A stretch of DNA of 64,000 nucleotides from an uncultured Latescibacterota bacterium (GTDB lineage Bacteria > Latescibacterota > UBA2968): contig OY282377.1 in assembly GCA_958295785.1 (NCBI GenBank), positions 5,396,896 through 5,460,895 of the forward strand, read 5' to 3'. Below the pieces are notes generated by a model. It worked only from the letters and a program-made list of their open reading frames with translations, ran no database searches and was not told where the DNA came from. Within the stretch, counting starts at the first letter, position 1. Every line of letters starts with the position of its first letter. This document shows, in pieces, positions 20,509-43,117 of this stretch. Made by a program: the position numbers and the translations under genes.

Positions 20509-20668
20509 GTTGAAAACAGCTATCAGCCCCCGCGCATCCACCCCTAAAGGCGACTTGTTTTGCCGACCACTGAGAGATTGGGGATTGGGTGGCCTTCTCT
20601 CCTTTCGCTTCTCACCTTCGGACCAGGTGAAAGGGTGGACCGGCCACCGAAACGCTGACCGCTTGTTT

Positions 20669-21100
20669 TATGCCAATTTGCTTTCAAGTTGTCCGTATCC
20701 TGCCTCCCATCAGGGATGAATGAGAAATGAGGAATGAGGAACAGACTTACGTAAAGCGTTTGGTTCTGCCTCCTGGTGGGTTGCCTTTGATGCCTTCGGC
20801 GACCTACTTTTTTTCAACAGCAAAAAAAAGTAGGCAAAAAATGCCGCTCTCATGCGCCGAGAGGCTGGCACAGCGCAAAGCGCTTCGTTGCACACACGAC
20901 AGGTGTTGGCCTGCAAGGTGGGTTGCCAGATGGATGTGGGTTGCGAGACGGCCTTGCGCGCTGTGCGTGATGGCTTTATCGGAGGGTGTTTTGTGATGGC
21001 ATTTTGCCAGGGCTTATTTGACGTACTGCGTAATGGCAAGAGGATCATTTGCAGGGAGCATATCGCATCACATTAGGACAATAGCTATTCAATTTGGTAT
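20669..21100. mobile_element. MITE-like element M, copy 1 (432 bp)
   Basis: Bounded by TATGCCAATTTG and TCAATTTGGTAT, which are imperfect inverted repeats. The interior (A-rich CAGCAAAAAAAAGTAGGC, GCCGAGAGGC, GGTGGGTTGC, GGCCTTGCGCGCTGTGCG) recurs at 27272-27734 and 42654-43117. Open frames of about 110 codons run through it but their conservation only mirrors the DNA. The remaining bases of 20509-21158 show no gene. Confidence 0.75.
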
Positions 21101-21158
21101 TTCGTCTTGCTTGAAGGGCGGTTGAACAGGGGCTGACTGCCGACCACTCTCCACTTCC

Positions 21159-25927: not shown

Positions 25928-26080
25928 ATTTCCATGCGTTGCTTCGCCGATTCGCTTTCCGACTTCATTGGCTATCTCCTCGGGTTGACTTTTGTAGTAT
26001 AATACGGTACTTTTGAAATCGCAATCAAAGACTGTTTGCAATACATCTGCGTCGCCCGGTTCTCAATAGGATACCCGCCC

Positions 26081-26863
26081 ATGACAGATCTGTTGCCAGA
26101 ACCGAACGATAAGCCCATCGCTCATGTTCGCGCACTTGTCGATGCGTTTTCAACAGAACCCGCGTGTGTGGGCAACGCGCTTTCTGACGGGCGTTATTTT
26201 TTGGATCGCAAATACGATGCGATGGCGCGGCGGCTCGGCACTCTGTTCTGGCTGCCCGTGCCACATGCATACACCGCGTTTTGTTATGCGTATAGCGCGC
26301 TGTTTGGCATTCCCAATTTTACGCGCGAAGCCCTGATGCGGCAGCCCGATAGGTTTTCGCAAAAGCGTTTGGCACTCACCATTCGCTCCACGAGTGGCTT
26401 CATCCTCGACGGCTTTGGGTACGACCGGCGCACGGATCGGCATCGCAAGGATATTTATTGGCCCGGCCCTGTTATTCGCAGCGTGCATGTGCAAAGTCCC
26501 AAACGCGACAAGGCGCGCATTTCCAATCCGGCAATGGCCTACTTTGGCTATCATCTCATCCGGGCGGCTGAACGGCTTTCAGAACATCGCAACATCGCGG
26601 ACTTCCAGTGCCAACGACAGCAGCACTGCGATTTTTTTGGTGACTTTTTTCGCTCGGCAGGTTATCCTTTTCCCACAGACCGCCGGGAGGCCAGAGATTT
26701 TTCGAGGATAGCCGATGCCCTGCTCGCAGGCGATGACTATGCCGATTTCTGGCACAACATCCGCCATGCGGCAAACGCGCTCGGCGTGGCCCTCGACATC
26801 GCAGACCTCGCGTCTTTTCTGCCCAAACGCACGGGGATGTTTTTTAGAGAACGCATTTTGTAA
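26081..26863 (+). CDS. Conserved-looking hypothetical protein (mainly helical)
   Basis: Read from ATG 26081 (MTDLLPEPND), 260 residues. It contains an aromatic, partly hydrophobic stretch (RLGTLFWLPVPHAYTAFCYA) that might contact membrane or a hydrophobic cofactor, and several Arg/His-rich loops, but no motif I recognise. Base composition and codon use agree with neighbouring genes, so I take it as real. The selenoprotein gene starts 40 bp downstream with its own strong ribosome site, so the two may form an operon. No function is assigned. Confidence 0.6.
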   Translation: MTDLLPEPNDKPIAHVRALVDAFSTEPACVGNALSDGRYFLDRKYDAMARRLGTLFWLPVPHAYTAFCYAYSALFGIPNFTREALMRQPDRFSQKRLALTIRSTSGFILDGFGYDRRTDRHRKDIYWPGPVIRSVHVQSPKRDKARISNPAMAYFGYHLIRAAERLSEHRNIADFQCQRQQHCDFFGDFFRSAGYPFPTDRREARDFSRIADALLAGDDYADFWHNIRHAANALGVALDIADLASFLPKRTGMFFRERIL

Positions 26864-26903
26864 GTGCAAAGTCATTCCATTCACATTTTTTTAGGAGGTA
26901 GAT

Positions 26904-27143
26904 ATGCCCAGGGTCGAAATCGAATATTGCGCTGCTTGAGGCTATGAGGAACAATCCGTCGGGATGACGGATAAAATTGTCAACGCATTCAAGCAGGACA
27001 TCGAAGCCATCACCCTGATCCCATCCAGCGGGGGTCGCTTTGAAATCACGGTCGATGGCGAACTCGTTTTTTCCAAACTCATGGAAAAACGCTTTCCCGA
27101 ATACGAAGAAATCCAACCCCACATTCAAAACCGCGTTTCATAG
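26904..27143 (+). CDS. SelW/Rdx-family selenoprotein (TGA = selenocysteine)
   Basis: An ORF too short for ordinary gene finding because it contains in-frame TGA at 26937. Starting from ATG 26904 after AGGAGGTAG, the product is 79 residues: EIEYCAA-U-GYEEQ with Cys9 and Sec12 as a CxxU redox pair, then ITLIPSSGGRFEITVDGEL and KRFPEYEEIQ, the two hallmark segments of the Rdx/SelW thioredoxin-like family. Homologues have Cys or Sec at this exact place. A bSECIS hairpin follows the TGA. SelW-like proteins are small thiol oxidoreductases; the partner is unknown. Downstream is a strong terminator. The alternative, a pseudogene with a nonsense change, is unlikely given the match of codon position and hairpin. 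Confidence 0.88.
26937..26939 (+). other. Selenocysteine codon of the SelW-like gene
   Basis: In-frame TGA at residue 12, exactly at the second redox position of the CxxC/CxxU motif. Confidence 0.85.
26951..26980 (+). promoter_or_regulatory. bSECIS hairpin of the SelW-like gene
   Basis: ATCCGTC (26954-26960) pairs with GACGGAT (26966-26972) around the loop GGGAT, whose first base is G as in bacterial SECIS elements. The loop begins 21 bases after the TGA, within the usual 16-37 base range. An outer ACAA/TTGT pairing is possible. Confidence 0.75.
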
Positions 27144-27148
27144 CCACT

Positions 27149-27186
27149 AAAAATCGAGCCGGGGCAAAAAAGCTCCGGCTCGATCT
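27149..27186 (+). terminator. Intrinsic terminator after the selenoprotein gene
   Basis: ATCGAGCCGG and CCGGCTCGAT form a 10-bp stem followed by a T-rich tract, 8 bp after the stop codon. Confidence 0.75.
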
Positions 27187-27271
27187 CTTTACTGTTTCAA
27201 TCAAAGGGACAGCAATTCGGGCGATGAAAATGAAAGAATACAACCTTGCTACACGCCAATCCCATCGGGTT

Positions 27272-27734
27272 ATACCAATTTGATTTTTATTTCTCCGTAT
27301 CCTGCCTCCCATCAGGGATGAATGAGGAACAGACGTTCTGTACGGATCAGGGATTGCTCGTCTAAAGCGTTTAGTTTTGCCTCCGCGTGGGTTGCCTTCG
27401 ATGCGTTGGCTACGCCTGTGCCTACGGCGTGCGGCGACTTCCTTTTTTTCAACAGCAAAAAAAAGTAGGCAAAAAATGCCGCTCTCATGCGCCGAGAGGC
27501 TTGCACAGCGCAAATCGCTTTTGTAATAGGACGACATGCGCCGGCCTGCAAGGTGGGTTGCAAGAGGGAGGTGGGTTGCGAGACGGCCTTGCGCGCTGTG
27601 CGTGATGGCTTTATCGGAGGGTCTTTTGGGATGGCATTTTGCAATGGCTTTTCTGAATGACTGCGGAAAGTCAAGGGAATCATTTGCGGGTCGCAGATCG
27701 CATCACATCAGGCCAATAGCAATTCAGTTTGGTG
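27272..27734. mobile_element. MITE-like element M, copy 2 (about 463 bp)
   Basis: Begins ATACCAATTTGATTTTTATT and ends AATTCAGTTTGGTGT, imperfect inverted repeats. The interior matches copies at 20669 and 42654, with an extra GGCTACGCCTGTGCCTACGG segment shared with copy 3 but not copy 1. Confidence 0.78.
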
Positions 27735-27743
27735 TTCCTTCCA

Positions 27744-39441: not shown

Positions 39442-41271
<1,830 letters not shown>

Positions 41272-41287
41272 CAAAATTGTTCTCAAC

Positions 41288-41363: not shown

Positions 41364-41379
41364 GTGACCGCAAAATGAA

Positions 41380-41455
41380 GACGGGGGTGCTCGCTGTTGC
41401 GAGCTGAGATCATACCCTTTGAACCTGATCCGGATCGCGCCGGCGTAGGGAGTTC
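41380..41455 (+). promoter_or_regulatory. TPP riboswitch of the thiO operon
   Basis: GGGGGTGCTCGC, CTGAGATCATACCCTTTGAA, CCTGATCCGG and GGCGTAGGGAG are the ordered THI-box segments. Confidence 0.93.
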
Positions 41456-41465
41456 ACAAAATGGA

Positions 41466-41504
41466 ACAAACCACTTTTCAACGCTGGGCGAAGGGTGGTT
41501 TTTT
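41466..41504 (+). terminator. Riboswitch-controlled terminator upstream of thiO
   Basis: AAACCACTTTT and AAGGGTGGTTTTTTG form a stem with a T run between the aptamer and the thiO start at 41519. Confidence 0.6.
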
Positions 41505-41518
41505 GATTTGAGGTCGCA

Positions 41519-42655
41519 ATGTCGCACAAGCGTGTGCTGATCATAGGAGGCGGGGCCATTGGCTTGGCAATAGGTTGGCGGCTGGCGCGTGCGGGGTGTT
41601 CCGTGGCCCTGTTTGACCGAGGCCGCGTCGGGTGCTCGGCGAGTTGGGCGTCGGCCGGCATGTTGTCGCCGCTGTCCGAGGCGCAATTTGAAGAGGAAGA
41701 CCTGTTGCATCTCGGGTTGAAGGCGATGGAGGTTTATCCCGATTTCGTCGGCGAATTGGAGGCCGAAACCGGGTGTTGCGTGGGGTATCGGCGCGATGGC
41801 GTGCTGTTGGTCGGCATCACGCAAGACGATCTGGAATACCTAAAATTTCGGTATCGCTATCAGCGCGAGTTGGGCTTGCCCGTCACCTATCTTTCCGGCG
41901 CGGAAGCGCGGTCAAAAGAGCCGCATTTGTCCGCGCAAGTCAGCGCGGCTGTGTGGTGCCCGGGCGATCATCAAGTGGATAACCGGCGCCTGGTAATGGC
42001 GTTGAAACGCGGAGTCGAGGCCGCAGGTGGCGAAATATTTGAAGACGCGGCGGTGGATGAACTCTTGATCGATGGGATGCGCGTGATCGGGGTGCGCGTT
42101 GGCGAGAAAGTCCATAAGGGCGATACCGTGGTGTTGGCATCGGGCTGCTGGTCGCGCCTGATGCCGGGGTTGCCCGATAGCGCCAAGCCGCCGGTGCGCC
42201 CGGTGCGCGGGCAGGTTGCGCGCTTGGGCACGACCCGAGAATTTGCACTCAATACCATCGTCTGGTATTCGCGGGTGGCAACATCAACGGTCGCTTATCT
42301 CGTGCCCAAAGGCGACGGAACGCTCGTCTTGGGCGCGACCTCAGAAGAGATGGGATTTGACGAAGACGTGACAGCGGGGGGGATGTTTGAACTCTTGCGC
42401 GCAGCGTGGGAAGTGGTGCCGGGGATTTACGATTTGCGCGTGGTCGAATCTATGGCGGGGTTGCGCCCGGGCAGCCGAGATGACGCGCCCATTTTGGGCA
42501 AAACGCCGGTGGAGGGCTTGATTATGGCAACAGGCCATTATCGCAAGGGCATTTTGCTGACGCCGCTGACCGCGCTGACCATTGCCGAAGTGATTTTGGA
42601 GGGGCGCACTCCGGAGATTATTCGCCCCTTTGGCATTGACCGATTTGGATTGTAA
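41519..42655 (+). CDS. thiO: Glycine oxidase ThiO
   Basis: ThiO oxidises glycine with O2 to iminoglycine for thiazole synthesis, replacing the radical enzyme ThiH; its presence implies an oxygen-using route. The 378-residue protein begins with the FAD loop IIGGGAIGLAIGWRLA and the second part SASWASAGMLSPL, and ends with the typical GLIMATGHYRKGILLTPLTA. It heads a six-gene thiamin operon. The stop codon now abuts a mobile element; the original 3' end and link to thiS are altered (see direct repeat). Confidence 0.95.
   Translation: MSHKRVLIIGGGAIGLAIGWRLARAGCSVALFDRGRVGCSASWASAGMLSPLSEAQFEEEDLLHLGLKAMEVYPDFVGELEAETGCCVGYRRDGVLLVGITQDDLEYLKFRYRYQRELGLPVTYLSGAEARSKEPHLSAQVSAAVWCPGDHQVDNRRLVMALKRGVEAAGGEIFEDAAVDELLIDGMRVIGVRVGEKVHKGDTVVLASGCWSRLMPGLPDSAKPPVRPVRGQVARLGTTREFALNTIVWYSRVATSTVAYLVPKGDGTLVLGATSEEMGFDEDVTAGGMFELLRAAWEVVPGIYDLRVVESMAGLRPGSRDDAPILGKTPVEGLIMATGHYRKGILLTPLTALTIAEVILEGRTPEIIRPFGIDRFGL
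42632..42653 (+). repeat. Direct repeat left of element M copy 3
   Basis: A 22-base stretch, GGCATTGACCGATTTGGATT plus GT, repeated at 43118-43138 with one T fewer. The pair flanks the element exactly. Confidence 0.8.
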
Positions 42656-43117
42656 TACCAATTTGATTTTAAGTTGTCCGTATCCCGCATCCCATCAGGG
42701 ATAAATGAGGAACAGACTTCTGTACGGATCATGGGTTGCTTGTCTCAAGCATTTGGCCTTACAGCATCGTTTGTTGCCTTTGATGCGTTGGCTACGCCTG
42801 TGCCTACGGCGTGCGGCGACCTACTTTTTTAACAGCAAAAAAAAGGAAGGAAAAAATGCCGCTCTCAAACGCCGAGGGGTGCTCTGCACAGCGCAAATCG
42901 CTTTTGTAACAGAATGACATGTGTTGGCCTGCGAAGGAAGTTGCAAGAGGGAGGTTGGTTGCGAGACGGCCTTGCGCGCTGTGCGTGATGGCTTTATCCG
43001 ATGGTCTTTGGGGATGGCATTTTTGCCAGGGCTTATTTGACGTACTCCACGAAGGACTCGGGACGGTGTACAACTGCGATGTCGCACCAGCAGTTCGCGA
43101 CACGAAGGAAAATTTTT
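42654..43117. mobile_element. MITE-like element M, copy 3, inserted between thiO and thiS
   Basis: Starts ATACCAATTTGATTTTAAGT and shares the interior of copies 1 and 2 up to about 43045; its right end is rearranged and lacks the AATTTGGTAT terminus. It separates thiO from thiS by nearly 500 bp in an otherwise compact operon. Confidence 0.78.

Follow-up and report, generated by a model that had tools for sequence, protein, structure and literature searches.

Selenoproteins of the SelW type have been recognized in bacteria for many years. In 2006, SelW-like proteins with a CxxU motif were tabulated in sequenced bacteria, with ten SelW-like entries (PMC1794560), and in the marine Global Ocean Sampling (GOS) data the SelW-like proteins were, together with SelD, the most widespread selenoproteins, with 427 Sec forms versus 56 Cys forms (PMC2398784). 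Recent reviews place the SelW-like proteins under PF10262, and one grades them as high-confidence predictions (PMC9312934, PMC13188914). It was also reported earlier that the SelW genes of epsilonproteobacteria had been completely missed by annotation (PMC4607533). Latescibacterota are not named as a host in the SelW literature cited here, and none of the publications found on Latescibacter and selenocysteine is evidently about SelW, judged by title and the beginning of the abstract. The SelW-like bacterial selenoproteins are thus a long-known and widespread marine family, and the gene described below adds one member to it.

A SelW-like gene with an in-frame TGA

The gene lies in a stretch of 64,000 nucleotides (hereafter, the window) from a genome of 5.66 Mb assembled as a single contig, the nearest named relatives of which are Candidatus Latescibacterota MAGs, some of them deposited as Gemmatimonadota. 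The frame extends on the forward strand from an ATG at 26904 to a TAG at 27141-27143, and its product would have 79 residues if the TGA at codon 12 specifies Sec. The original prediction had given these coordinates together with a ribosome site, Cys9 and the TGA at codon 12, all of which are borne out by the sequence. The features of the locus are as follows.

26081..26863, + strand: uncharacterised 260-aa protein, probable operon partner, with 40 nt between its end and selW (homologue and neighbourhood comparison)
26893..26899, + strand: Shine-Dalgarno sequence AGGAGGT, 4 nt 5' of the selW ATG (sequence)
26904..27143, + strand: selW-like selenoprotein gene of the Rdx family, 79 aa with TGA predicted as Sec, stop TAG (PF10262, TIGR02174, PDB relatives and TGA-bearing homologues)
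26937..26939, + strand: predicted Sec codon UGA, codon 12, in the CxxU motif (CAAU; C9-A-A-U12) (sequence and homologue comparison)
26954..26972, + strand: putative bSECIS apical hairpin ATCCGTC-GGGAT-GACGGAT, stem 26954-26960 with 26966-26972, loop 26961-26965 (sequence and homologue covariation)
27153..27191, boundaries approximate, + strand: strong terminator-like hairpin directly 3' of the selW stop, ATCGAGCCGGGGC AAAAAA GCTCCGGCTCGAT then CTCTTT (fold)

The CxxU motif lies close to the N-terminus of the product, and the two later SelW/Rdx hallmarks, LIPSSGGRFEI and KRFPEYEEI, are both intact, as had been claimed. Downstream of the gene, the segment 27144-27195 folds at -26.5 kcal/mol into a strong hairpin, to which a T-rich tail is attached. 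The best start available to a gene caller using translation table 11 is the ATG at 26964, which yields a fragment of 59 aa; thus, the expectation that a standard gene call would miss or split this gene was correct.

The family assignment is supported by matches to profiles and to solved proteins. The product matched PF10262 (Rdx) with 80.5 bits (cut-off 22.6) over profile positions 1-73 of 74, in a match that spans the TGA, and TIGR02174, the NCBI SelT/SelW/SelH subfamily, with 68.7 bits (cut-off 34.2). Solved Rdx proteins were also matched, e.g., 2fa8 (E 2e-13), and in the best solved relatives the second Cys of the CxxC motif sits at the position of the TGA. The gene resembles the known bacterial SelW-like (SELENOW-like) selenoproteins of PF10262/TIGR02174 in size, in the CxxU, GG(R)FE and RFP motifs and in a bSECIS placed directly after the UGA, but differs from them in having its own lineage-specific upstream partner gene. 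It falls outside the epsilonproteobacterial SelW equivalog, as its score against NF041051 (SelTWH_Campy), 79.7 bits, is below the curated cut-off of 88. The Cys-type Rdx proteins, which are mainly proteobacterial (2fa8, 2p0g), belong to the same family but carry Cys in place of Sec (CxxC instead of CxxU), have other residues after the motif (often R-F/W) and lack a stem in the register seen here. By analogy with the family, the product may be a small thiol/selenol oxidoreductase.

Conservation of the TGA codon

A selW match was obtained in 44 of 60 related genomes, with TGA in every match among the matches listed. We compared 44 Sec-type homologue loci, mainly from the same class and some from other phyla, and in all of them the frame has TGA at this codon and runs on past it; close homologues ending before this position, which would have spoken for an ordinary stop, are not what is seen. 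A wider scan found TGA at this codon in Poribacteria, Planctomycetota, Thermomicrobium, a Dehalococcoidia bacterium and the myxobacterium Plesiocystis. The codon is TGC or TGT in 15 homologues of the Cys type, which are more distant and come mostly from Proteobacteria and Chloroflexi. A scan of viral contigs for selW relatives found none.

Since TGC is converted to TGA by a single base change, the gene might be thought to be a pseudogene, or the codon a sequencing error, in which a Cys codon (TGC/TGT) was mutated and the downstream homology is a relic. However, independent assemblies from 15 of the 23 genera of relatives, and from other phyla, show this TGA, and the frame 3' of the TGA evolves under protein constraint: sequences of the same genus differ there by 21-28 synonymous versus 6 non-synonymous codon changes, which indicates that the part downstream of the TGA is translated. 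This conservation and the purifying selection downstream refute a relic or an error, the probability of which we regard as negligible.

Some relatives have a TAG inside the match, for which pyrrolysine was considered and rejected, as they occur where the frame reaches its C-terminal end and read as ordinary stops. On one Dehalococcoidia contig (L099), Cys-type and Sec-type Rdx genes were found close together (1195-1410 and 1501-1713).

Selenocysteine machinery of the host genome

All four genes sought in connection with the original prediction, selA, selB, selC and selD, are present in the same genome as the selW-like gene. The selA match scored 573 bits and the selB match, approximately 255 nt downstream of selA, 386 bits; the tRNA-Sec gene (selC) has the anticodon TCA and adjoins selD. 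The selD gene itself has an in-frame UGA in its SCGGU active site. A short stem of its own, CCAGC-GGU-GCUGG, comes after this UGA and places the loop 20 nt from it, a geometry close to that in selW. Across the related genomes, selA exceeded the cut-off in 42 of the 44 with Sec-selW versus 3 of the 16 without it (Fisher P 1e-8), an association that is partly phylogenetic; genomes within a class are not independent. Both G005 and G038 are draft assemblies with Sec-selW; selA was not found above the cut-off in the former and was present only as a fragment in the latter.

An open frame across the TGA would also result if the lineage had reassigned this codon to Trp or Gly, or if leaky readthrough inserted an ordinary amino acid. 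Yet the TGA aligns with Cys in homologues, the genome encodes the full Sec apparatus, selD too has UGA at its known Sec site, and the 31 long frames from which codon usage was taken are open under table 11. Reassignment or readthrough is therefore extremely improbable, and we infer that codon 12 is read as Sec.

Other elements were observed in this genome. A dispersed repeat of approximately 400-470 bp occurs in the window at 27269-27740, 42652-43040 and 20668-21101, with further copies of 82-84% identity in the same genome (L053, L047 and L042); next to selC, in L001, there is also a short fragment of it. The window also contains two divergent TPP riboswitches approximately 100 nt apart, at 41185-41274 (-) and 41373-41468 (+).

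The bSECIS hairpin

According to the published model, a bSECIS element has a small apical loop 16-37 nt after the UGA with a G among the first two bases of the loop (PMC13188914), and the loop GGGAU, 21 nt after the UGA, agrees with it. The hairpin had been described as a 7-bp stem with a G-first loop of 5 bases, starting 21 bases after the TGA; the stem length and the loop were confirmed, whereas the distance of 21 nt applies to the loop, and the stem starts after 14 nt.

A hairpin of this kind could arise merely from what the protein sequence and codon usage dictate, the true bSECIS being elsewhere or unusual. When the region was recoded synonymously with local codon usage (weights from 31 long frames of the window genes), a 7-bp Watson-Crick hairpin resembling a bSECIS arose in 3% of cases (P ~0.03), and in 11.5% when G-U pairs were allowed. 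Folding energy is no more decisive, as the MFE of the SECIS region did not separate Sec from Cys homologues, the z-scores of the latter being equal or lower. The lone hairpin of the window is thus weak evidence for a bSECIS.

The homologues are more informative. In an alignment of 30 distinct Sec sequences, which leaves out L030 (containing an N) and L099 (the Sec-type copy of which has its hairpin placed differently), all 150 cells of the 5-bp core stem are paired. Compensatory changes were observed in two pairs: three sequences have AU for GC at one, and six have CG for UA at the other, where UG intermediates also occur. None of 500 shuffles reached the covariation score of the stem. Sliding the register destroys the pairing, and the slid registers receive no support. 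In addition, loop position 2 is G in all 30 sequences. Although the stem columns are under protein constraint as well, the change from GC to AU alters amino acids on both sides, so that pairing is kept while the protein changes. Conserved and covarying pairing supports a bSECIS much better than a single hairpin does, and with the register fully conserved, a G always at loop position 2 and a distance within the published range, a by-product of coding is very unlikely.

An orphan gene upstream of selW

Directly upstream of selW is the gene for the 260-aa protein, for which we chose the ATG start, a TTG start at 26036 being possible. Its product had no significant match in Pfam, NCBIfam, PDB sequences or PDB folds (Foldseek), and none on plasmids; its structural model is fairly confident and mainly helical (mean pLDDT 82, pTM 0.84). 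Of the 64 genomes of the phylum that were searched, 16 have the gene, with 17 copies in all, and each of the 17 sits directly upstream of a Sec-selW, in the same orientation and 35-100 nt from it; in these 64 genomes the orphan was never found elsewhere. One copy, in the genome G020, is interrupted by a TAG and is possibly defective. A draft assembly with 7% contamination (G010) contains two orphan-selW pairs (L011 and L060), possibly from two strains. In families further out, selW is kept with other neighbours, showing that the orphan partner is not universal.

The natural reading of this strict pairing is that the two genes form an operon and are co-transcribed, and it suggests that the orphan protein and SelW are functional partners. 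A more specific proposal, that the orphan is dedicated to the selenoprotein, as its redox partner or its substrate, and that the two constitute a new two-component selenoprotein module, is tentative, and we consider it somewhat less probable than its negation.

Conclusions

The original prediction of a SelW-like selenoprotein with its own bSECIS is supported by the Sec machinery, the conserved TGA and the covarying pairing of the hairpin. The best explanation, to which we assign a probability of about 0.97, is that this is a genuine SelW/Rdx selenoprotein gene, in which UGA codon 12 is read as Sec via SelB and the bSECIS. SelB would bring Sec-tRNA-Sec to the hairpin just 3' of the UGA, so that codon 12 would be translated as selenocysteine and the product would be a thioredoxin-fold protein of 79 residues carrying the CxxU redox motif. 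The gene is probably co-transcribed with that of the 260-aa protein, and the two products probably work together.

These results extend the well-supported users of Sec-type SelW by a Latescibacterota lineage and provide a clean annotation correction for a gene missed or truncated by standard callers. Through its strict pairing with selW, the orphan gives a concrete entry point to the function of bacterial SelW proteins and, if the two do form a module, could bring to light the target of a bacterial SelW.
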